8,278 nucleotides of DNA from a bacterium (lineage in GTDB: Bacteria; RBG-13-66-14): contig DATKYS010000095.1 of NCBI GenBank assembly GCA_035528375.1, forward strand, positions 1-8,278, in the 5' to 3' direction. Under the pieces are notes generated by a model that saw only the letters and a program-made list of their open reading frames with translations, did no database searches and was not told the origin of the DNA. This document shows positions 61-8,245 of the stretch, one piece after another. Each line of letters starts with the position of its first letter. The first letter of the stretch is position 1. The translations under genes and the position numbers were made by a program.

Positions 61-81
61 TTTCGACGTTCCCGGCCCCGA

Positions 82-129
82 CCCTCACCCTGACCCGTAG
101 GCGAGCCTCTCCCTGGAAGGGAGAGGGGA
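82..129 (+). repeat. Diverged C-rich hairpin module (F copy 2)
   Basis: Carries the CCCTCACCCTGACCC lead and a CTCTCCCT...AGGGAGAGGGG hairpin, but has a short GTAGGCGAG segment inserted between the two blocks and lacks the TAAGGTGG lead of the other copies. It is a degenerate member of the same family. Confidence 0.6.
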
Positions 130-182: not shown

Positions 183-228
183 GTAGGGGCCGACCGACGG
201 CGCGCCGTTCAGGTCGGCCCGTTTTTTT
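183..228 (+). repeat. GTAGGGGC palindrome with T-tract (type B, copy 1)
   Basis: The outer stem GGGCCGACC pairs with GGTCGGCCC and encloses a self-complementary ACGGCGCGCCGT. It is followed by GTTTTTTT (221-228), so it looks like an intrinsic terminator read rightward, although no rightward gene precedes it in the window. The 50 bases 174-223 recur identically at 4342-4391, where no T-tract follows. The T-tract here runs directly into the C-rich module at 229. Confidence 0.8.
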
Positions 229-297
229 ATAAGGTGGCCCTCACCCCCATCCCCTCTCCCGGAGGGAGAGGGGGGCCGCGGGCCGCCGCGTTTTTTC
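229..297 (+). repeat. C-rich hairpin module (F copy 3), part of a 56-bp perfect inverted repeat
   Basis: Block order is ATAAGGTGGCCCTCACCCC, ATCCCCTCTCCC, loop, GGGAGAGGGG, GGCCGCGGGCC, GCCGCCGCGTTTTTT. Positions 223-278 are the exact reverse complement of 7159-7214. The module abuts the T-tract of the preceding palindrome. Confidence 0.8.
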
Positions 298-325
298 CAA
301 CCCCGGCCCGCGCCCCGCGGCGGCC

Positions 326-1048
326 CTACGACCCCGGCGGCGGCTCCCGGTTGATGCAGAAAAGATCGGGCAGCCGAATCTCCTCCCAGTCCATGGACCG
401 CGGCATGACCCGCCCCGAGACGTTGTCGGCCCCCGTCTCGGCGAAGGGGGTTATGTTGAACCCCACCAACTCGGCGCACAACGCCACCACGCAGGACCGG
501 GCCAGCCCCCGCTTGCGGAACTCGGGATGCGTCGCCACCCCCAGGTCGGCGTAGGCACCGTCCTCGGCGTAGACCGCGGCCATCGAGCGGATGTGCCCCC
601 CCACCTGGGCCCCGAAGGCGTTCTCGTTCTCGATGAAGTGGGCGATGCTCGCGTGGTACTTCCAGAGCCAGGGCTCGTCTATCTCCCCCACGTCCCTCTC
701 GTCGCGGGGGGCCAGCCAGCGCACCGGGTGCTCCGGCTCCGGGTAGGGCTCGCGGGCGATGAAACCGACCCGGGGCCACCGGACGACCGCGTTGAAGGCC
801 TGGCGCAGCACGCCCTCCCAGTCCGGCCCGGCGTAGCAGAAGCCGGTCCAGTCCACCGGAGGCATGACGGCCAGCACCTCGGGCTCCTGGGGCTCACCGC
901 CGCAGGCCAGGTCGTCGAGGTGGGAGTGCACCGCCCAGCCATCGCCCAGGCGTATCACGCCCCGCCCGGCTAAAAGGTTCGCCCGGGGTATCTGCAGCCC
1001 GGGGTCTGGCGGGAAAAATTTCAGGGCAATCTCGTAATCGTCGTTCAT
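326..1048 (-). CDS. GNAT-family N-acetyltransferase
   Basis: A 240-residue protein whose C-terminal half looks like a GCN5-related acetyltransferase, an enzyme that moves an acetyl group from acetyl-CoA to an amine. The signature is around residues 150-185: a strand (HIRSMAAVYAEDGAYADLGV), then THPEFRKRGLA, which matches the Q/RxxGxG/A acetyl-CoA pyrophosphate loop (R178, K179, R180, G181, A183). A later ETGADNVSGR (204-213) resembles the Asn-containing strand near the GNAT C-terminus. The layout recalls the PF12746-type GNATs, but I could not search for this. Residues 1-110 are not recognisable to me. The ATG lies 2 bases after the tgt stop and no Shine-Dalgarno is visible, so it is probably translated by coupling with tgt. 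The substrate is unknown; nothing beyond operon position links it to queuosine. Confidence 0.85.
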   Translation of the reverse strand: MNDDYEIALKFFPPDPGLQIPRANLLAGRGVIRLGDGWAVHSHLDDLACGGEPQEPEVLAVMPPVDWTGFCYAGPDWEGVLRQAFNAVVRWPRVGFIAREPYPEPEHPVRWLAPRDERDVGEIDEPWLWKYHASIAHFIENENAFGAQVGGHIRSMAAVYAEDGAYADLGVATHPEFRKRGLARSCVVALCAELVGFNITPFAETGADNVSGRVMPRSMDWEEIRLPDLFCINREPPPGS

Positions 1049-1050
1049 GG

Positions 1051-2283
1051 TTATTCGGGGTAGGCGGCGAAAACCCGTTCGGCGAGCTTTTGTAGACTAC
1101 GGTCCTCTATCGCCTCGCGGATCCGCCGCATCAGTTGTAGGTAGAAGAAGAGGTTGTGATAGGTCGCCAGCCTGAGGCCGAGAAATTCTCCGGCGCGCAC
1201 CAGGTGCGCCAGGTAGGCCCGGGTGTGCCCGGCGCATACCGGGCAGCCGCACTCGGGGTCCGGCGGCGTGTAATCCTGTCTGAACCGCGCGTTGCGCAGG
1301 TTGAGCTTCCCGGCCCAGGTGAAGAGCTGGCCGTTGCGGGCGTTACGCGTGGGCAGGACGCAATCGAAGAGGTCAATCCCGCGGGCCGCGGCGTGGACGA
1401 TGTCCGCCGGGGTGCCCACGCCCATCAGGTATCGGGGCCGGTCCCCGGGCAACAGCGGCGCCGAGGACTCCAGCACCTCGCGGTACAGCGCCTTGGGCTC
1501 GCCCACGGAGAGCCCCCCCAGGGCGTAGCCGTCGGCGTCCAGCTCCGTCAGAAACGCCGCCGATTCGGCCCGCAGCGCGGGGTGCATCCCGCCCTGGACG
1601 ATGGCGAAGAAGGCGCGCCGCGTGCCGTTCTCGGAGTTCAGCCGCCGGTGCTCCTCCAGCGACCGCCGCTCCCAGGCGTGCGTGAGCGCCAGGCTCGTCC
1701 GCACCTCCTCCGGGGTCGCCGGGTACGGGGTACACTCATCCAGGGCCATGACCACGTCGGCCCCCAGGGAGTGCTGCACCCGCACGGACCGCTCCGGGGT
1801 CAGCTCGTAGAGCTCCCCGTCCAGGGGGCTGGCGAAGAGCACCCCGTCGGCGTCCAGGCGCCGGACGACCGGCTCCCGCTCGCGGCTCCAGGCTTCGGGG
1901 ACCGCGTTCTCGCCGTCCAGTCCGGGGAAGCCCTCGTCGCGGTCCGGCTCGGTCTCCGCGGGCAGTCGGGCGCCGATTCCGCGGCGGCCGGAGAGGGAGA
2001 AGACCTGGAAGCCGCCCGAGTCGGTGAGAATCACCGGGCCGTCGTCGCCCAGACCCATGAAGCGGCGCAACCCGCCGGCGCCCTCCACCACCTCCGGGCC
2101 GGGACGCTGCCACAGGTGGTAGGTGTTGCAGACCAGTTGCTGGACGCCCAGGGCCCGGATGTCGCCGGCGTCGAGGGTCTTGACCGTGGCCTGGGTCGCC
2201 ACCGGCATGAAGGCCGGGGTTTGGATGGTGCGGCCTCCGACGGTGCAGGCGCCCCGCCGGGCGAGGGAATCCTCCGCCTGCAC
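1051..2283 (-). CDS. tgt: Queuine/preQ1 tRNA-guanine transglycosylase
   Basis: Exchanges guanine-34 in the GUN anticodons of Asp, Asn, His and Tyr tRNAs for the queuosine precursor preQ1. Family hallmarks are all present: NTYHLWQRPG (53-62), the general acid/base Asp88 in ILTDSGGFQVFSL, DECTPYP (182-188), LGGLSVGEP (256-263), nucleophile Asp307 in DLFDCVLPTRNARNG, and a zinc site C345/C347/C350 (CxCxxC) plus His376 in TYHNLFFY. The protein has 410 residues against about 375 usually; the excess is an insertion of about 40 residues between FSL (95-97) and DGVLF (146-150). The start is GTG; no ATG, GTG or TTG lies upstream in frame before a stop at 2344-2346. The family's N-terminal pattern (F-x-L/V...D..ARRG) fits a start at or slightly before this point, and the best SD-like GGGAGG is oddly far (about 25 bases). 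First gene of a unit with the GNAT gene. Confidence 0.97.
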   Translation of the reverse strand: MQAEDSLARRGACTVGGRTIQTPAFMPVATQATVKTLDAGDIRALGVQQLVCNTYHLWQRPGPEVVEGAGGLRRFMGLGDDGPVILTDSGGFQVFSLSGRRGIGARLPAETEPDRDEGFPGLDGENAVPEAWSREREPVVRRLDADGVLFASPLDGELYELTPERSVRVQHSLGADVVMALDECTPYPATPEEVRTSLALTHAWERRSLEEHRRLNSENGTRRAFFAIVQGGMHPALRAESAAFLTELDADGYALGGLSVGEPKALYREVLESSAPLLPGDRPRYLMGVGTPADIVHAAARGIDLFDCVLPTRNARNGQLFTWAGKLNLRNARFRQDYTPPDPECGCPVCAGHTRAYLAHLVRAGEFLGLRLATYHNLFFYLQLMRRIREAIEDRSLQKLAERVFAAYPE

Positions 2284-2345
2284 GCTGAATTCGAGGTCGC
2301 CCGCCTTGCCTCCCGGGTCCGCGAGTGGGGGAGACCACCCCCCTT

Positions 2346-2374
2346 ATTATGCAGCCCGGAAGGTCATTTTGCAA
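2346..2374 (-). promoter_or_regulatory. Sigma70-type promoter for tgt-GNAT
   Basis: Read leftward: TTGCAA (2374-2369), a 17-base spacer, CATAAT (2351-2346). The predicted start is near 2339, giving a leader of about 55 bases. The leader opens with a GGGGG/CCCCC hairpin (2342-2327, 6-base loop). I see no preQ1-riboswitch-like element in this short leader. Confidence 0.65.
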
Positions 2375-2390
2375 CACCCCCAATGAATCC

Positions 2391-2420
2391 GTGACAAACA
2401 CCCCCATCGCATCGTATATC
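2391..2420 (+). promoter_or_regulatory. Probable promoter for the CsgG-like/vWA gene
   Basis: GTGACA (2391-2396), 18-base spacer, TATATC (2415-2420), with a predicted start near 2427. A stem TCTTGA/TCAAGA (2428-2433 with 2443-2448) sits right at the predicted transcript start. The ribosome binding site GGAGGG (2454-2459) lies just before the ATG at 2463. Confidence 0.5.
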
Positions 2421-2462
2421 TTACGCATCTTGACCCGTTAATTCAAGACCCGGGGAGGGAAG

Positions 2463-4253
2463 ATGAAAAAGGCGCTTCTGGTCGTGCTTTCGGTTCTGGC
2501 GGCCGCTTCCGTGGCGCTGGCGCCCAAGAAAATCGCGGTCCTCTACTTCGACGTGGCCGCCCCGACGAACGACTACGACTACCTCGCCACCGGCATCCCC
2601 GAGATGCTCATCACCGACCTGGCCAACCAGCGCGACATCACCGTCATCGAGCGGGAGCGGCTGGACGAGGTTCTCCAGGAGATGGCCCTGGGAGGCTCGG
2701 GAATCACCGACAACGCCACCGCCCTCGAGGTGGGGAAAATCCTGAACGTGGAGCTCCTGATAATGGGCAACCTGACGGTGGCCGGGGAGAGCTTCCGGCT
2801 GGACACCAAGATTCTGGAGGTGGAGACGGCGGAGGTTATCGGCGCGGTGAAGGCGGCCACGGAGGACGAGGGGGACCTGTTCGATCTGGTGGACGCGACG
2901 TCGGCGGCGCTCATTGACAAGCTGCGCGGCGTGACGCTGGGCTCGGGGCTCACCTACGACATCCCCGAGGGCGCCGTCCGCTTCGACGTGGCCTTCGTCA
3001 TAGACACCACCGGCTCCATGGGCGACGAGATCCAGGTGGTGAAGGAGAAGATGAAGGAGATCGCGGCCGAGGTGGCGCAGGGGACCCCGCCGCCCGCCGT
3101 GCGCTTCGGCATCGTCGAGTACCGCGACCGGGGCGACGTGTACGTGACGCAGACCACGGACCTGACCTACGACGTGGCGCGGCTCAACGAGCGGATAAAC
3201 TCGATCATCGCCTCGGGTGGCGGCGACGCGCCGGAGAGCGTGGCCGAGGGGCTCCGGGCCGCCATCCACGAGCTATCCTGGGAGACCGGACCCGTCGTCC
3301 GCCTGGCCTTCGTCATCGGTGACGCGGCCGACCACCTCTACGGCGACGCCGGCTACACCCTCCAAGACGCCGCCGAGGACGCCGCCGACCTGGGGCTCAC
3401 ATTCTTCACCATCGGCTGCTCCGGCCTGGACCCCGCCGGCGAAAGCCAGTTCGTAAAGCTGGCCTACGAGACCAACGGCAGCTTCGAGTACCTCACCTAC
3501 CGCCAGCGCTACATTGACGATACCGGCAAGGAGGTGGCGCTTCTGTACGAGGGGGACCACGTGTACGAGGAACCGACTCTCACCGAGCCGTCCCTCACCG
3601 CGAGCATAGACTACGCCTACCCTGCGGAGTCCGAAGAGGTGGGCGGCGTGGGCAGCTCCGGCATCATCACCTCGGCCCTGAAGGGCGAGGGCTACGGCGC
3701 CGGGGGGTCGGGGAGCTACGACGAGTACTACACCGAGGCCACCGGGGCCGAAGCGGAATACCTGGCCTCCGAGGAAACGGTGATGAGCGTCTCGGGCGGC
3801 AGCACCGTGGGGGCCAAGGAGAACAACCTGGACCGGCTGGTCACCGACGTCATCATGGCGGAGGCCATCCGCCGCGACGTGAGCTACGACCTGGGCATCC
3901 CCGTGGCCAAGGTCCTGGTGGAGAACTCGGGGCGCCGCGCCTGGCTGCCGGTGACCGACCCGACGATGATGGACCGGCTGCGGTCGGCGGCCGGGGCCGG
4001 GGAGACCCTGTGGGTTTCGGCGGGCGTTTCGCCGAAGCCGGAGGGCTCCGCGGCCGAGAACGCCTTCGTGTTCGTGGCGGGCACCCTGCGGCTCTTCGAC
4101 AAGGAGAGCCAGGTCCCGGCGATGGCCCGGGGCGATTTCGCCGTTTTCGACGGCGACCCGGCGTACTACCGGGACCACGGCCTGGGCAGCCCCAACGTGT
4201 GGGCCGTGCCGGTGCGGGTGCTGGAGTTCGAGGCGGTTGAACCGGCCGAGTAG
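2463..4253 (+). CDS. Secreted protein with CsgG/FlgO-like domain and MIDAS-type von Willebrand A domain
   Basis: 596 residues, probably exported across the inner membrane. Residues 1-20 form a Sec signal peptide (KK, then a hydrophobic run); cleavage after SVA (16-18) is more plausible than after ALA, because Pro follows the latter. There is no lipobox Cys. Residues 22-157 resemble the CsgG/FlgO fold: KKIAVLYFD, GIPEMLITDLAN, VIERERLDEVLQEM, LGKI-type helix, LLIMGNLTV, DTKILEVETAEVIGAV. Residues 172-345 form a vWA domain: VAFVIDTTGSMGDEI with MIDAS residues D181, T183 and S185, then YRDRGD, SGGGDAPESV (a GGGDxPE loop as in alpha-kinase VwkA-like vWA proteins) and VIGDAADH (D287). Residues 360-450 are acidic and rich in Gly, Tyr and Ser, probably a linker; 455-596 is an unrecognised, probably beta-rich domain. 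It stands alone with its own promoter and terminator. A cell-surface or periplasmic adhesion or assembly role is inference. Confidence 0.85.
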   Translation: MKKALLVVLSVLAAASVALAPKKIAVLYFDVAAPTNDYDYLATGIPEMLITDLANQRDITVIERERLDEVLQEMALGGSGITDNATALEVGKILNVELLIMGNLTVAGESFRLDTKILEVETAEVIGAVKAATEDEGDLFDLVDATSAALIDKLRGVTLGSGLTYDIPEGAVRFDVAFVIDTTGSMGDEIQVVKEKMKEIAAEVAQGTPPPAVRFGIVEYRDRGDVYVTQTTDLTYDVARLNERINSIIASGGGDAPESVAEGLRAAIHELSWETGPVVRLAFVIGDAADHLYGDAGYTLQDAAEDAADLGLTFFTIGCSGLDPAGESQFVKLAYETNGSFEYLTYRQRYIDDTGKEVALLYEGDHVYEEPTLTEPSLTASIDYAYPAESEEVGGVGSSGIITSALKGEGYGAGGSGSYDEYYTEATGAEAEYLASEETVMSVSGGSTVGAKENNLDRLVTDVIMAEAIRRDVSYDLGIPVAKVLVENSGRRAWLPVTDPTMMDRLRSAAGAGETLWVSAGVSPKPEGSAAENAFVFVAGTLRLFDKESQVPAMARGDFAVFDGDPAYYRDHGLGSPNVWAVPVRVLEFEAVEPAE

Positions 4254-4282
4254 ATCGGCGTTTTGCGTAACCGTTATTGTAG

Positions 4283-4311
4283 GGGCGGACCCATCGGTCC
4301 GCCCTTTTTTT
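4283..4311 (+). terminator. Intrinsic terminator of the CsgG-like/vWA gene, built from a repeat palindrome
   Basis: GGGCGGACC pairs with GGTCCGCCC across a CATC loop and is followed by seven Ts. It lies 30 bases after the stop codon. The upstream GTAGGGGC (4279-4286) shows that it belongs to the same palindrome family as the other intergenic repeats, and the T-tract is followed by ATAATCGCCCCTCACTCC, a truncated version of the C-rich module lead. Confidence 0.9.
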
Positions 4312-4341
4312 ATAATCGCCCCTCACTCCGGGTTGCGATGT

Positions 4342-4391
4342 TGCGATGACGTAGGGGCCGACCGACGGCGCGCCGTTCAGGTCGGCCCGTT
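4342..4391 (+). repeat. GTAGGGGC palindrome (type B, copy 2)
   Basis: Fifty bases identical to 174-223, including the flanking TGCGATGAC. After the shared GTT the sequence turns to GGGTCATCA, so unlike copy 1 it has no T-tract. The preceding bases 4333-4348 contain a tandem TTGCGATG duplication. Confidence 0.85.
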
Positions 4392-4418
4392 GGGTCATCA
4401 ACCGTCGTGCGCCTACAC

Positions 4419-4445
4419 TTAGGGCGGGGACTTTAATCCCCGCCG
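4419..4445 (+). repeat. Palindrome, type D (TTAGGGCGGGGA variant)
   Basis: GGGCGGGGA pairs with TCCCCGCC across a CTTTAA interior. It shares both arms with the element at 4543-4568 but has a different loop and TT instead of GT at its left edge. It runs directly into the next, oppositely oriented element at 4446. Confidence 0.75.
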
Positions 4446-4472
4446 CGGGCGACCGTGGACGGTCGCCCCTAC
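4446..4472 (-). repeat. Palindrome, type A (copy 1 of 4)
   Basis: Reverse complement reads GTAGGGGCGACCG, TCCA, CGGTCGCCCG. The four 27-bp copies (this one, 6999-7025, 7351-7377, 8219-8245) are identical, two in each orientation. Stem of at least 9 bp. Confidence 0.85.
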
Positions 4473-4502
4473 GAGGTTTTCGCCGATGGTTGGCGATTTG
4501 GC

Positions 4503-4530
4503 GTAGGGGCGGGTGTCCACACCCGCCCGC
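4503..4530 (+). repeat. Palindrome, type E (copy 1 of 2)
   Basis: GTAGGGGCGGGTG, TCCA, CACCCGCCCGC: a stem of at least 9 bp with the same TCCA loop as type A but a different core. Identical over 28 bp to the reverse complement of 7300-7327. Confidence 0.85.
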
Positions 4531-4542
4531 ATTCGCCCAAAT

Positions 4543-4568
4543 GTAGGGCGGGGATTCCTATCCCCGCC
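4543..4568 (+). repeat. Palindrome, type D (GTAGGGCGGGGA)
   Basis: GGGCGGGGA/TCCCCGCC stem with a TTCCTA interior. It shares arms with 4419-4445 and with the longer-looped version at 7215-7270; the window edge (8268-8278) cuts off another copy starting with the same 11 bases. Confidence 0.8.
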
Positions 4569-4573
4569 GCTTT

Positions 4574-4613
4574 CGCCCCTCTCCCTAGCCCTCCCCCCAG
4601 AGGGGGGAGGGGA
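4574..4613 (+). repeat. C-rich hairpin module (F copy 4)
   Basis: CCCCTCTCCCTAGCCCTCC followed by CCCCAGAGGGGGGAGGGGA: a strong GC hairpin of the CCCTCTCC family, lacking the TAAGGTGG lead. It closes the repeat cluster that fills 4279-4613. Confidence 0.7.
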
Positions 4614-4654
4614 CACGCGGCACCCCCCGTACTACTCCTTTTCACGCCCCCATG

Positions 4655-4663
4655 TGCTATGAT
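4655..4663 (+). promoter_or_regulatory. Extended -10 promoter for the YchN-like gene
   Basis: TGCTATGAT matches the TGnTATAAT extended -10 pattern. No good -35 hexamer sits 17 bases upstream, as expected for this class. A second possible -10 is TATACT (4666-4671). The leader would be about 38 bases, ending in a strong AAGGAGA ribosome site at 4692-4698. Confidence 0.5.
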
Positions 4664-4707
4664 TTTATACTCGAACGACTGACCCAAACCAAAGGAGAGA
4701 TAGCCCC

Positions 4708-5079
4708 ATGCGCGTCTTCATCATCGTAACCCACCCGCCCTACGGGAACGAGACCACCCGGTCGGCCCTGCGCGTCGCCCGGCGGCTGCGTAAAATCCCG
4801 GACATCGAGCTGGCGCTCTTCTTGATGGCCGACTCGGTCTACTGCGCCCGCAAGGGAGAGGCCTACGCCGAAGGGGTGTACGACCCCGAGCTGGGCCACA
4901 CCTACTCGGCGCCGCAGATGCTGGCCGTCATCAAGGACAACGCGGAGGTCTTCGCCTGCGGCACCTGTATGGGCGAGCGCGATTTCAAGGAGGACGAGCT
5001 CATCGAGGACATCGCCATCGGCACCCTGGACGTCATCGCCGAGTACACCGCCAAGGCGGACAAAGTCCTGACCTTCTGA
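4708..5079 (+). CDS. YchN-like DsrE/DsrF-family protein
   Basis: A 123-residue cytoplasmic protein of the DsrE/DsrF fold, the family of sulfur-carrier subunits such as TusBCD and of E. coli YchN. It resembles YchN along its whole length: THPPYGNETTRSALRVARRL near the start, LFLMADSVYCA (38-47), APQMLAVIKDNAEV (68-81), CGTC (84-87), and the C-terminal IGTLDVIAEYTAKADKVLTF. Cys84 and Cys87 sit where the family has its conserved or active cysteines; Cys46 is an additional one. YchN-type proteins form small oligomers and their exact job is not settled, so a persulfide-relay role here is inference. The start is fixed by AAGGAGA nine bases ahead of the ATG. No dsr or tus partner genes are adjacent. 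Its stop lies 3 bases from the stop of the opposing SDR gene. Confidence 0.92.
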   Translation: MRVFIIVTHPPYGNETTRSALRVARRLRKIPDIELALFLMADSVYCARKGEAYAEGVYDPELGHTYSAPQMLAVIKDNAEVFACGTCMGERDFKEDELIEDIAIGTLDVIAEYTAKADKVLTF

Positions 5080-5082
5080 GCC

Positions 5083-5961
5083 TCAGCGCCTCGGGGGACG
5101 CAGGCCGGCGATCCCCGCCATCAGCCGCACCACCCAGGTGGTGAACTCGTTGGGCGCGTAGCGCTTGAAGAACATCGAGAGCCCGGCGAAGCCCCCGCTC
5201 GTCCAATGGAGGCCGGGGTTGCGGGCGCCTATCGCCCTACGGATGGTGCGCGCCACGACCCGCGGGTCCACCGCCCCCTTCCCGTGGGTCATCCCGGTGA
5301 AACGTTTCGGGACGATGGAGAGGAGGTCGGCGTAGGGCGAATCGGGCCCGTCGTTCCACTTCGCCGGTCGCTTGAGCGACGTGCCGGCGAACTCGGTCCT
5401 CGTGGAGTACGGCTCGACCGAGACCGCCCGGATGCCCAGCGGCCGCAGCTCCAGCCGCCACTCCTCCACCAGGCCGATGAGCGCGAACTTGGTCGCCGAG
5501 TAGAGGCCCATGAGGGGGTATCCCGCCCGGCCCGCCGTGGAGCTGACCACCACCAGCGTCCGCCTGCGCGATTCGTCGGCCCGCATGAGCGGCAGGAAGG
5601 CCCGCGCCACCCGCAGCACGCCGAAGACGTTGGTGTCGAACTGGTCGAAAATCTCCGCGTCGGAGAAGTCCTCCAGGACGCCCAGGTAGGGGAAACCGGC
5701 GTTGTTGACCAAATTGGTCAGGCGGCCGTCCACGGCGCGGACGCGCTCCGCCGCGGCGGCGATGGTCGCCGGGTCGGTCAGGTCCAGCGGGAGGAGCTCG
5801 ACCTCCACCCCGGCCGCGGCGCAGGCCGCCAGGAGGGGGGCCTTCTTACCGAGGTCGCGCATCGTGGCGTAGACCTTGTGCCCGACACGGGCCAGCTCCA
5901 CCGCCGTCACCAGGCCGATTCCCGACGAGCATCCGGTCACCAGGGTCACGGGTCGAACCAT
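5083..5961 (-). CDS. SDR-family NAD(P)-dependent oxidoreductase
   Basis: A 292-residue classical short-chain dehydrogenase. Near the N-terminus is the Rossmann dinucleotide motif TGCSSGIG (9-16), then NNAG (86-89) after LTNLV, structural Asn111 in NVFG, catalytic Ser141 in VVVSSTAG, and YSATK with Tyr154 and Lys158. EPYSTRTEF (183-191) replaces the usual PG motif after the active site. The C-terminal part (GMTHGKGAVDPRVVARTIRRAIGARNP, then a hydrophobic tail) resembles SDRs acting on lipid, steroid or retinol-like substrates, but the substrate cannot be read from sequence. I chose the ATG at 5961, which has GGGAGG seven bases ahead, over an in-frame GTG at 5991 that would overlap the panD -35 element and add ten unconserved residues. 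The gene is divergent from panD and convergent with the YchN-like gene. Confidence 0.93.
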   Translation of the reverse strand: MVRPVTLVTGCSSGIGLVTAVELARVGHKVYATMRDLGKKAPLLAACAAAGVEVELLPLDLTDPATIAAAAERVRAVDGRLTNLVNNAGFPYLGVLEDFSDAEIFDQFDTNVFGVLRVARAFLPLMRADESRRRTLVVVSSTAGRAGYPLMGLYSATKFALIGLVEEWRLELRPLGIRAVSVEPYSTRTEFAGTSLKRPAKWNDGPDSPYADLLSIVPKRFTGMTHGKGAVDPRVVARTIRRAIGARNPGLHWTSGGFAGLSMFFKRYAPNEFTTWVVRLMAGIAGLRPPRR

Positions 5962-5984
5962 CTCGTTCCCTCCCTCGAATCGCC

Positions 5985-6013
5985 TTGACACCCCCCGAAG
6001 CGGGCCCTATAAT
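5985..6013 (+). promoter_or_regulatory. Perfect consensus sigma70 promoter for panD
   Basis: TTGACA (5985-5990), exactly 17 bases, TATAAT (6008-6013). The predicted start is near 6020, at the base of a short hairpin GGGCG/CGCCC (6019-6023 with 6027-6031). The leader of about 43 bases ends in AAGGAG (6048-6053), nine bases from the ATG. The divergent SDR promoter probably shares this 100-bp gap, but I see no convincing leftward hexamer pair. Confidence 0.9.
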
Positions 6014-6062
6014 GCCCTGGGCGACACGCCCGAGGCGTTTTCATTTTAAGGAGACCGGACCG

Positions 6063-6428
6063 ATGGCGCTCTATCGCATGGTCGGCGGAAAAATTCACCG
6101 CGCCACGGTGACCGAAACGGAGCTGGACTACGAGGGCTCGATATCCATTGACCCGGAGCTCTACGAGCGGGCGGGTTTTCGGCCCGGCGAGCTCTTGCAG
6201 GTTTACAACCTGGCCAACGGCGCCCGCTTCGAGACGTACCTGATTGACGCGCCGCGCGGCTCGGGGATGATCGGCGTCCGTGGCGCCGCAGCCCACCTGG
6301 CCGACCTCGGCGACAAGCTCATCATCGTCAACGTCCTCATGCTGGATTCCTCCGAGCTCGAAGGCCACCGGTTCCGTGTGGTCCGGGTGGACGAGCGCAA
6401 CCGCCCGGTGGAGGATACCAAAGCCTGA
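6063..6428 (+). CDS. panD: Aspartate 1-decarboxylase (pyruvoyl-dependent)
   Basis: Makes beta-alanine from L-aspartate for pantothenate and coenzyme A synthesis. The 121-residue proenzyme is of normal length and self-cleaves at Gly25-Ser26 (in LDYEGSISID), turning Ser26 into the pyruvoyl cofactor. Active-site residues are recognisable by the E. coli pattern: Lys10 (K9), His12 (H11), Arg55 (R54), Thr58 (T57) and Tyr59 (Y58). The C-terminal half has GAAAHLADLGDKLIIVNVLMLD and the RVVRVDERNRP tail typical of the family. One departure stands out: the usual NGAA motif reads RGAA here, with Arg73 at the position of E. coli Asn72 (codon CGT). The gene has a consensus promoter and strong ribosome site, so high expression is expected. 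A hairpin with a T-tract follows its stop; no other pan genes are in the window. Confidence 0.97.
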   Translation: MALYRMVGGKIHRATVTETELDYEGSISIDPELYERAGFRPGELLQVYNLANGARFETYLIDAPRGSGMIGVRGAAAHLADLGDKLIIVNVLMLDSSELEGHRFRVVRVDERNRPVEDTKA

Positions 6429-6450
6429 CCCGCCGCGCCAGCGGGAGCGT

Positions 6451-6474
6451 GGCGGGGCCCGACCCCGCCTTTTT
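6451..6474 (+). terminator. Intrinsic terminator or attenuator between panD and the phosphatase
   Basis: GGCGGGG pairs with CCCCGCC across a CCCGA loop, followed by five Ts. It starts 22 bases after the panD stop and ends one base before the phosphatase ATG. It may end panD transcripts while letting some read through into the phosphatase. Confidence 0.65.
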
Positions 6475-6475
6475 G

Positions 6476-6964
6476 ATGAGGAATCCGACGGACATCCACC
6501 CCGACCTGCCCGACCTGACCTGGATCATCCCCGGTGAGCTGGCGGCCATGTCGCGGCCCGGGTCGGGCGTGGGGCTGGCCCGCGAGCTCCGGGCGCTCCG
6601 CGAGCTGGGCATCCGGCGGATTCTCACCCTCGCCGAGCACCCCCTCGGGGTGGGCCTGGGCCGCCTCCCCTTCTCAAAGCTCCACCACCTGCCCATCGAG
6701 GACTTCACCGCCCCGCCCCAGGGGGTCCTGGACTGGGCGGTGGAGCTGATTGACGAAGCCCGCCGCGCCGGCGAGCCGATCCTGGTCCACTGCTACATGG
6801 GCCTGGGGCGGACCGGGATGGTCCTCGCCTGCTATTTCGTCCACCGGGGGCGCACCGCCGAGGAGGCCATCGAGCACGTCCGTAGCCTGCGGCCGGGCTC
6901 CGTGGAAAGCCCCGTGCAGGTGGAGTCGGTGTTCGAGTTCTGGTCCCGCCGCGGCGGGAAGTGA
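6476..6964 (+). CDS. Dual-specificity / tyrosine-type protein phosphatase
   Basis: A 162-residue cytoplasmic protein with the cysteine-phosphatase signature HCYMGLGRTG: nucleophile Cys106 and phosphate-binding Arg112 in HCx5RT. The general acid is Asp76 in LPIEDFTAPP, followed by a helix (GVLDWAVELIDEARRAGEP) leading to the P-loop. The N-terminal WIIPGELAAMSRP and the LRPGSVESPVQ segment after the P-loop are typical of compact DUSP23-like and archaeal PTP-type phosphatases. The substrate may be a phosphoprotein or a small phosphorylated molecule. I prefer the ATG at 6476, because the conserved WIIPG lies close to the start in relatives. The in-frame GTG at 6449 would add nine residues spanning the terminator hairpin and has only a badly spaced GGGAG. 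Neither start has a good Shine-Dalgarno. It follows panD on the same strand, but co-transcription is uncertain because of the hairpin. Confidence 0.88.
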   Translation: MRNPTDIHPDLPDLTWIIPGELAAMSRPGSGVGLARELRALRELGIRRILTLAEHPLGVGLGRLPFSKLHHLPIEDFTAPPQGVLDWAVELIDEARRAGEPILVHCYMGLGRTGMVLACYFVHRGRTAEEAIEHVRSLRPGSVESPVQVESVFEFWSRRGGK

Positions 6965-6998
6965 ACGGCGGCCCATCAGAGCATCGTGAGATTGACCC

Positions 6999-7025
6999 GT
7001 AGGGGCGACCGTCCACGGTCGCCCG
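6999..7025 (+). repeat. Palindrome, type A (copy 2 of 4)
   Basis: Identical 27-bp copy with a TCCA loop, 34 bases after the phosphatase stop. It is followed by TCGGTG, not by a T-tract, so it is a weak terminator candidate for the phosphatase. Confidence 0.85.
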
Positions 7026-7039
7026 TCGGTGTAAAACTC

Positions 7040-7065
7040 GTAGGGGCCGACATGCGGTCGGCCCG
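7040..7065 (+). repeat. Palindrome, type C (copy 1 of 2)
   Basis: GTAGGGGCCGAC, ATGCG, GTCGGCCCG: 8-bp stem GGGCCGAC/GTCGGCCC. Identical over 26 bp to 8139-8164. No T-tract follows. Confidence 0.85.
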
Positions 7066-7091
7066 CGGTCAAGGTGAGGGCTGCATTATAT

Positions 7092-7130
7092 CCCCTCTCC
7101 CTTCTAGGGAGAGGGTTAGGGTGAGGGTCG
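7092..7130 (-). repeat. C-rich hairpin module (F copy 5)
   Basis: Read leftward it is CCCTCACCCTAACCCTCTCC followed by CTAGAAGGGAGAGGGG, a stem-loop of the same family as 229-297 but without the TAAGGTGG lead. It lies 30 bases from the next copy in the same orientation. Confidence 0.75.
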
Positions 7131-7158
7131 GGGTTGGGAGCGTGAAAGCGGCGACCCA

Positions 7159-7214
7159 CGGCCCCCCTCTCCCTCCGGGAGAGGGGATGGGGGTGAGGGC
7201 CACCTTATAAAAAA
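7159..7214 (-). repeat. C-rich hairpin module (F copy 6), partner of 223-278
   Basis: Exact 56-bp reverse complement of 223-278, including six Ts, ATAAGGTGG and the CCCTCTCCC hairpin. Its T-tract (7214-7209 read leftward) directly follows the type D palindrome at 7270-7215, copying the palindrome, T-tract, F-module order seen at 183-297. Confidence 0.9.
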
Positions 7215-7270
7215 CGCGGCGGGAAAGGATTTGCTTCGCATAGCTCGCTTCGCTCGGTTCCCCGCCCTAC
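7215..7270 (-). repeat. Type D palindrome with enlarged loop
   Basis: Read leftward, GTAGGGCGGGGA opens and TCCCGCCGCG closes, enclosing about 34 bases with two GCGAAGC blocks (seen on the plus strand as GCTTCGC at 7233-7239 and 7246-7252). The other type D copies have only about six bases in this place. A T6 tract and F module follow in the leftward direction. Confidence 0.7.
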
Positions 7271-7299
7271 ATTTCAACGCACGGCGGTAAATCAATACA

Positions 7300-7327
7300 G
7301 CGGGCGGGTGTGGACACCCGCCCCTAC
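7300..7327 (-). repeat. Palindrome, type E (copy 2 of 2)
   Basis: The reverse complement is identical over 28 bp to 4503-4530 (GTAGGGGCGGGTG, TCCA, CACCCGCCCGC). It has no T-tract in its own orientation. Confidence 0.85.
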
Positions 7328-7350
7328 GTCACGAATCGTTGCCGTTATCC

Positions 7351-7383
7351 GTAGGGGCGACCGTCCACGGTCGCCCGTTTTTT
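7351..7383 (+). repeat. Palindrome, type A (copy 3 of 4) with T-tract
   Basis: Identical 27-bp palindrome followed by TTTTTT (7378-7383), so it has intrinsic-terminator form for rightward transcription. The nearest rightward gene ends at 6964. It may act as a distal terminator that keeps rightward transcripts from running antisense into the ABC gene. Confidence 0.8.
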
Positions 7384-7425
7384 CCCAATCGGCGCCGGTC
7401 CCCCGCCAAGAGCTAAAACGCGGGT

Positions 7426-8121
7426 TTAAAGCCCTATAACCCTCTCCGCCACGCCCCCGAACGCCCCCCTCCCCGGGTCGGCCACGACCACCAACCGCGC
7501 CGACGCCTCCCCCGCCAGCCAGACGACGAGCCTCCCGCGCTCGTTCGGACCCAGCCCCGCCAGGGGGTCGTCCACGAGGAGCGCCGCCGGCTCCAGCGCC
7601 GCCCGCGCCCCCAGGGCCAGCCCCAGCCTCCGCCAGCGGTCCATGCCGGCGAGGGGCGCGTCGTCGGTGATTTTTCCGATCAACGGCTCGGCCCGCGCCA
7701 GCGCCTCCTCCCCCAACTCCCCCGCCCGCTCGGCCAGGTGCCACAGCGCCGGGTTCTGGCCCAGGTAGAGGTTTTTGGCAAAGGCCCGCCGCCGCTTCCG
7801 TCCGGCCAATCGCCAGGGCTCCGATCCGTCCACGGTAATCCGTCCCGCGTCGGGCCGCAGTGCGCCGGAGAGCATAAGGAGGAGGCTCGACTTCCCGGCG
7901 CCGGGACCGCCGGTGACCGTGACGAGCCCCCGGCGCGGCATCTCCAGGCCCAGGTCCCGGAAGACCTCGACCCGTTTTTGGCGGACGAAGGGTCCGCCCA
8001 GGCCGACCGGTCGGCTGAGGCAGACGCCCTCGAGGGCGATGAAGGCGGCGCTGGGGCTGGGTTGGGGCATTTTGGAAACGTGCGTCCGGTTGATTTTAAC
8101 AGAAGGCCGACGGCGGTTCAT
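7426..8121 (-). CDS. Degenerate ABC-type ATPase
   Basis: A 231-residue single ABC nucleotide-binding domain without membrane segments. Walker A is intact (GGPGAGKSS, 71-79, Lys77), the Q-loop is LGQNPALW (Gln122) and Walker B is ALLVDDP (180-186). Three catalytic signatures are altered: the LSGGQ motif reads LAGMD (157-161), the residue after the Walker B Asp is Asp185 instead of Glu, and the H-loop position in VVVADP (211-216) has Ala214 for His. Overall order and spacing match LolD/MacB-like export ATPases, where such a domain pairs with a permease, but no permease is visible and the upstream neighbour lies outside the window. The start at 8121 has GGAG ten bases ahead; an alternative ATG at 8070 removes 17 unconserved residues, lacks a Shine-Dalgarno, and has an extended -10-like TGTTAAAAT just upstream. 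It could bind ATP with weak hydrolysis, or be decaying. Confidence 0.83.
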   Translation of the reverse strand: MNRRRPSVKINRTHVSKMPQPSPSAAFIALEGVCLSRPVGLGGPFVRQKRVEVFRDLGLEMPRRGLVTVTGGPGAGKSSLLLMLSGALRPDAGRITVDGSEPWRLAGRKRRRAFAKNLYLGQNPALWHLAERAGELGEEALARAEPLIGKITDDAPLAGMDRWRRLGLALGARAALEPAALLVDDPLAGLGPNERGRLVVWLAGEASARLVVVADPGRGAFGGVAERVIGL

Positions 8122-8138
8122 ACCGGCGGTGCTCCGAC

Positions 8139-8168
8139 GTAGGGGCCGACATGCGGTCGGCCCGTTTT
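8139..8168 (+). repeat. Palindrome, type C (copy 2 of 2) with short T-tract
   Basis: Identical 26 bp to 7040-7065, here followed by TTTT. It lies 17 bases upstream of the ABC gene's first ATG, so a leftward promoter for that gene would have to lie within or beyond it. It continues into an F module at 8170. Confidence 0.8.
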
Positions 8169-8169
8169 A

Positions 8170-8213
8170 TCAAAGGCAGCCCTCACCCTAGCCCTCTCCC
8201 ACGGGGAGAGGGG
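8170..8213 (+). repeat. C-rich hairpin module (F copy 7)
   Basis: TCAAAGGCAGCCCTCACCC, TAGCCCTCTCCC, loop, GGGGAGAGGGG. The lead differs from TAAGGTGGCC but holds the same place between the T-tract of a palindrome and the CCCTCTCCC hairpin. Confidence 0.75.
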
Positions 8214-8218
8214 ACACG

Positions 8219-8245
8219 CGGGCGACCGTGGACGGTCGCCCCTAC
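8219..8245 (-). repeat. Palindrome, type A (copy 4 of 4)
   Basis: 27-bp copy identical to 4446-4472 and oriented the same way. It lies five bases after the F module ending at 8213. Confidence 0.85.

Follow-up and report, generated by a model that had tools for sequence, protein, structure and literature searches.

GTAG repetitive extragenic palindromic (REP) sequences and their REP-associated tyrosine transposases (RAYTs), together known as REPtrons, have been described as systems of intergenic palindromes of 20-40 nt that carry a GTAG tag and reach high copy numbers (Nunvar 2010, PMC2817692; Di Nocera 2013, PMC3733652; Corneloup 2021, PMC8266576). Inverted REPs around the transposase gene are the published hallmark of RAYTs (PMC2817692), and a single genome may hold several REP families, which also occur as inverted pairs and with alternative loops containing inner palindromes. 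Another intergenic repeat, the triplex motif (TM, also BoxC/PIT; Holder 2015, PMC4666352), comprises a CCCTCTCCC-loop-GGGAGAGGG hairpin plus a CCCTCACCC third strand, shows TTA and CCG spacer variants and is locally unstable between relatives. All of these characters recur, with the two kinds of repeat joined across a T-tract, in the DNA analysed here, a stretch of 8278 bases (the window) that makes up the whole contig DATKYS010000095.1 (G000:C95) of a bacterial draft genome of 2.63 Mb in 144 contigs. Its host would belong to Coatesbacteria, in the same genus as the sister genome G002. The source genome (G000) was compared with G002, with two further sisters of the genus (G001 and G003) and with G005, from the same family.

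Order, polarity and spacing of the composites

The four composites of the window read as the initial annotation had described them, with a palindrome (slot 1), a T-tract, a lead and a C-rich part (the last two forming part 2) always in this order. Composite 1 begins on the plus strand with a GTAG REP of class a (classes are named a-f) at 183-220, which has a 13-nt inner palindrome GACGGCGCGCCGT and an RNA fold of -26.6 kcal/mol (z -4.1). It continues with a T7 tract (222-228), the lead ATAAGGTGG (229-237) and a triplex-motif module (238-273), in which the CCCTCACCC third strand (238-246) and the CCCCTCTCCC/GGGAGAGGGG hairpin follow the motif as given in Table 1 of PMC4666352. Composite 2, also on the plus strand, has a class d REP (4279-4304; fold -21.8 kcal/mol, z -5.0) placed 25 nt past the stop of the vWA/CsgG gene, a T7 tract (4305-4311) that is the window's best candidate for an intrinsic terminator, and a decayed lead and triplex motif (ATAATCGCCCCTCACTCC, 4312-4330) that lack the hairpin. 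On the minus strand, composite 3 combines a class e REP (7218-7270), whose loop insert of about 30 nt belongs to the insert family ACCGAGCGAAGCGAGC, with a T6 tract (7209-7214) and the lead ATAAGGTGG plus CCCTCACCC triplex module (7159-7208), its hairpin reaching to about 7159; T6 tract and module together constitute the 56 identical bases reported previously, an exact match between 223-278 (+) and 7214-7159 (-). Composite 4 (plus strand) consists of a class a REP with a short loop (8139-8163), a T4 tract (8165-8168) and the lead ATCAAAGGCAG with a triplex module (8169-8213; CCCTCACCC at 8180-8188, hairpin at 8192-8213).

The same arrangement was quantified in 868 kb of the source genome, with a final recount on 1.05 Mb; the sampled stretches were partly picked for contigs with matches, which biases densities and leaves orientation and adjacency unbiased. 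With AAGGNRG-CCCTCACC as the lead pattern (genus form (A)TAAGGNRG), this sample contained 463 GTAG-tagged palindromes and 129 leads, or 124 once those inside genes or at edges were excluded. A palindrome on the same strand was found 7-12 nt upstream of 79 of these 124 leads, and one in the opposite orientation, anywhere within 40 nt upstream, of a single lead, whereas 1000 random placements in non-coding DNA gave a mean of 0.88 same-strand pairs and a maximum of 5. Chance is excluded as the cause of the adjacency, and the composite arrangement withstood the comparison with repeat density on which the initial annotation had staked it. At distances of 5-14 nt upstream, the recount yielded 82 same-strand against 1 opposite-strand pairs in G000, and 26 against 0 in G001. 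Order and polarity are thus fixed where the parts meet, yet the parts are also found separately. Hairpins lie at most 16 nt upstream of 112 of the 124 leads, compared with 391 of 1500 random intergenic points (26%), and comprise 79 clear REPs, 15 decayed REPs, 10 triplex hairpins and 8 others; since, conversely, 384 of the 463 REPs have no lead, leads depend on hairpins, but hairpins not on leads. The T-run is part of the REP junction: runs of at least 4 Ts follow 66 of the 79 composite REPs, but only 35 of 225 REPs with nothing recognised after them and 1 of the 87 REPs classed as having an inverted REP next, and leads located after a triplex hairpin are preceded by ATAT or similar and not by a T-run.

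Inverted REP pairs with a short linker, the arrangement of bacterial interspersed mosaic elements (BIMEs) and of REP doublets forming hairpins (REPINs), gave 78 pattern matches on both strands of the 868 kb. Composite-pattern matches in Nostoc, Pirellulales, Lysobacter, Planctomycetota, Gracilibacteria and one betaproteobacterium were triplex cores without a preceding GTAG palindrome and were rejected as chance joins. No usable strand bias of the composites relative to GC skew was obtained from the short contigs (31 of 65).

Family membership of slot 1 and part 2

Judged by its sequence characters, slot 1 is assigned to a set of GTAG REP families with putative cognate RAYTs. The GTAG tag stands 5' of a palindrome of 20-40 nt (mostly 25-39 nt among the 463 copies), the copies number well over 100 and they are extragenic, with 14 of the 463 inside called genes. 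Moreover, all the Y1 transposase (RAYT) genes found in G000-G003, at 7 loci, adjoin inverted palindromes of slot-1 classes, so that the REP-like label of the initial annotation holds for slot 1. The palindromes occupy both sides at 6 of the 7 loci, and one side at G003:C11, where the locus ends. The RAYT of G000 is flanked by classes d and a, that of G001:C310 by classes b and c, those of G001:C240 and G003:C454 by GTAGGGCGGGG with a TTTCCTAA loop, and those of G001:C353 and G002:C41 by identical copies of GTAGGGCGGGGACTTTAGTCCCCGCC at either end. RAYTs that share a palindrome type have 79-82% identity, against 32-54% otherwise, and this match between transposase lineage and palindrome class, together with the bracketing, indicates that the slot-1 palindromes represent different REP families rather than variants of one cassette part. 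The four proteins tested all scored above the cut-off of the RAYT model NF047646 (NCBIfam), and PF01797 was found in G000-G003.

The d/a-type RAYT (L031:1429-1902), located between purF-like and purM-like genes, is the only one in G000, where b, c, e and f REPs occur in hundreds; RAYTs matching b/c and e turned up in the sister genomes, which makes these orphan REP families. At the G000:C30 site orthologous to the G001:C353 RAYT unit with its identical REPs (L106:4853-5430), one REP is kept and the gene is a different one, CsgG-like.

Part 2 is recognised from its motif as a putative intrastrand-triplex motif of the BoxC/PIT type, with a lead that is specific to the genus. Read on the opposite strand, the BoxC/PIT/TM motif (PMC4666352) gives the string CCCTCACCC-NN-CCCTCTCCC-loop-GGGAGAGGG, and hairpin, third strand and spacers of the TTA or CCG type agree with the sequences of Table 1 in that work. 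G000 has 147 exact triplex cores, and the reversed control has none. The lead (A)TAAGGNRG, on the other hand, is dense in this genus only among the genomes searched: in G005, 34 triplex cores and 41 REPs of a single searched shape stand against one lead-like match, and so the presence of both parts is not enough. Within part 2, lead and loop share 0.86 bits of mutual information against 0.21 expected (p<0.0002), TGG going with GGA, whereas palindrome and lead share 0.37 against 0.26 expected (p=0.07). Part 2 is therefore coherent and slot 1 is weakly coupled to it, as the initial annotation had proposed in speaking of an exchangeable first slot and a conserved second part.

Hairpins of both repeat kinds hold nested palindromes of 11-14 nt (97-107 and 196-208 in the window), which in the G000 sample count 31 for GTAGGACGAGTCC, 54 for GACGGCGCGCCGT, 38 for GTCGGCGCGCC, 28 for GTAGGCGAGCC and 13 for GTAAGCGCGCTT; several of them differ in presence between species at orthologous copies. 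The last four lead bases before CCCTCACCC (GTAG, GTGG, GCAG, GAAG) resemble a degenerate GTAG tag genome-wide.

Turnover between sister species and probable origin of the arrangement

Genes of G000 and G001 are about 90% identical, and their orthologous intergenic regions carry different sets of modules. One of the two species has, and the other lacks, a 73-nt triplex module of a second type between a REP and a hairpin that are both conserved; one orthologous composite (L117/L044) has a class d REP in one species and class a in the other; and at the orthologous locus L128/L045 both the REP loop and the lead have changed. At L214/L092 (G001:C240/G000:C76), a conserved GTAGGGCGGGGTTTCCTAACCCCGCC ends the RAYT unit in G001 and heads a T6-lead-triplex array in G000. 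Informative orthologous sites are few and their changes multiple, so that events are not cleanly countable. About four tandem copies of a REP plus triplex unit of roughly 125 nt occur at L110:8121-8686 (G001:C67), where G000 has a single REP cluster.

The family identity of both parts by sequence, their polarity and spacing, the pairing of RAYTs with REPs, the coherence of part 2 and the turnover between species are probably best accounted for by a BIME-like mosaic built from two kinds of repeat already known, in which RAYTs spread the REPs, triplex modules are added 3' of existing hairpins and recombination shuffles the result. Several GTAG REP families fill slot 1, each probably moved by its own RAYT (Y1/HuH) transposase, which would be the reason why it holds different palindromes. 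Many of the REPs carry a T-run at their end and hence resemble intrinsic terminators. Part 2 would land on the 3' side of pre-existing hairpins, as a rule REPs with a T-tail and occasionally other triplex hairpins, and dispersed copies may then swap loops, leads and whole modules by recombination or gene conversion, so that orthologous spots come to bear different combinations. Some observations weigh against such a mosaic. No enzyme is known here for the triplex part, the arrival order of the two parts could be reversed, and the lead-bearing module offers no clean single-step empty site, most orthologous intergenic regions differing at many points. A residual weak association between palindrome and loop (p=0.003) means that slot 1 and loop subtype are not fully independent, 12 leads have no detected upstream hairpin (several of these resemble decayed REPs), and the class c REP (GTAGGGGCGACC...) heads 0 of 79 composites while making up 55 of 463 REPs overall, contrary to free assortment.

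Among the alternatives, the composite mobile element of the initial annotation, with palindrome, T-tract and triplex module travelling jointly as one unit of the miniature inverted-repeat transposable element (MITE) type, is unlikely. It would account for the order, strand and 7-12 nt spacing fixed in 79 copies, for entire composites that vary in presence between G000 and G001 (e.g., L214/L092 at 2493-2812) and for the weak palindrome-loop association; but one and the same part 2 stands behind different REPs and also behind other triplex hairpins, a given REP may have part 2 or lack it, as seen even within the window, and the palindrome classes have RAYT units of their own that lack part 2. 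The halves belong to different known families and occur apart, and neither shared ends nor terminal inverted repeats or target duplications were seen at composite ends in the orthologous alignments, which hold no clean empty site for comparison. We regard it as similarly doubtful that the triplex module itself is mobile and lands on REP hairpins with T-runs, perhaps through the REP transposase; if true, this would give a mode of spread for the widespread BoxC/PIT repeats. Improbable to a still greater degree is a passive by-product, that is, fork stalling at hairpins leading to frequent template switching between repeats, with the parts brought together without transposition of part 2: module shuffling is extensive at orthologous sites and triplex motifs have been tied to local instability (PMC4666352), but this process alone gives neither a single orientation nor the 7-12 nt spacing of nearly all copies.

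Little probability is likewise given to a terminator cassette under selection, in which transcription would stop at REP and T-run, with the triplex part serving to stabilise the end or to prevent read-through. The structure the initial annotation pointed to is there, a strong GC-rich hairpin followed by T4-T7 (at least 4 Ts in those 66 of 79 composites), and composite 2 lies just past the vWA gene. In 87 of 132 cases the first REP downstream of a stop codon points the same way as the gene (p=0.0003), and composites are denser between convergent genes. However, placement and orientation at gene 3' ends do not follow genome-wide. With genes called by us from codon usage, composites between tandem genes run with them in 13 cases and against them in 17; gene 3' ends lie within 80 nt of the palindrome side in 16 of 35 cases and of the triplex side in 13 of 39 (p=0.34); and co-oriented first REPs show no enrichment in T-runs (36 of 87 against 16 of 45, p=0.58). 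Moreover, earlier work cited in PMC4666352 found isolated triplex motifs without terminator activity. Gene orientation lends terminator function no general support, and function as the reason for the arrangement was not borne out. An apparent polarity of 20 against 3 vanished once distances were measured from the outer edges of the elements.

Other repeats of the window and comparison with known systems

As a correction to the initial annotation, the window contains 13 GTAG palindromes, and composites are headed by 4 of them only; the others are solitary, followed by a T-run without a module, or set in inverted pairs. The 38-base REP of composite 1 recurs at 4351-4388 (+), 51 nt being identical with the 5' flank, and lacks T tract and module there; beyond it lie REPs of class c (4447-4472, -), class b (4503-4528, +) and class e (4543-4568, +), the latter followed by a CCCCTCTCCC..CCCCCC/GGGGGG hairpin. 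Near composite 3 we find a class c REP (6999-7024, +), a REP identical to that at 8139-8163 without module (7040-7064, +), the TM type A triplex module CCCTCACCCTAACCCTCTCCCTAGAAGGGAGAGGGG (7092-7127, -), a class b REP (7302-7327, -) and a class c REP followed by GTTTTTT and no module (7351-7376, +), that is, REP and T-run alone. Another class c REP follows composite 4 (8220-8245, -). On the opposite edge, the lead TAAGGTGG with its triplex module (1-57, +) has its upstream partner cut off, and a triplex module of the second type, with the lead ACGTTCCC..CCCCGA and the nested palindrome GTAGGCGAGCC at 97-107, occupies 66-128 (+); both ends of the window break within REP/triplex repeats. Two palindromes reported by a scan (281-329, minus; 5332-5365) were dismissed as chance. 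The genes are ordinary (acetyltransferase, queuine tRNA-ribosyltransferase, CsgG/VWA protein, DsrE, short-chain dehydrogenase, aspartate decarboxylase, phosphatase and ABC ATPase), and Rfam and tRNA scans of the window gave no matches.

Several RAYT-REP families thus coexist in Coatesbacteria, including REP classes whose RAYT is found in sister species only, and the lead-bearing triplex form occurs almost only 3' of hairpins, most of them REPs of the transposase-linked kind, and is subject to turnover from one sister species to another, which makes its behaviour testable by comparison of strains. Neither the GTAG REP survey nor the 2025 RepRanger paper mentions Coatesbacteria by name, and no account of a junction between REPs and triplex motifs was found in the open-licence literature. 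What sets this genus apart from described GTAG REP/RAYT systems is the T-run and triplex module on one side of many copies. With respect to TM/BoxC/PIT, the differences are the genus-specific lead, the position directly 3' of REP hairpins and the nested palindromes of 11-14 nt in the hairpin. In Pseudomonas putida and P. fluorescens, degenerate GTAG REPs are likewise fused to a different, unrelated stem-loop in hundreds of copies (PMC3733652), but those fusions form inverted repeats around RAYT-type genes, whereas the triplex-motif partner described here is separated from its REP by a T-run and was not observed at the ends of RAYT units. BIMEs and the GTAG-23 REPs of T. roseum (PMC3733652) also mosaic REPs with other short motifs or associate them regularly with another palindrome, although in T. 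roseum the REP sits inside its target palindrome and here the parts stand side by side in one order. Altogether, each part was known before, as were REP fusions to unrelated stem-loops in Pseudomonas (PMC3733652), and it is the joining of REPs to triplex motifs that appears to be new.

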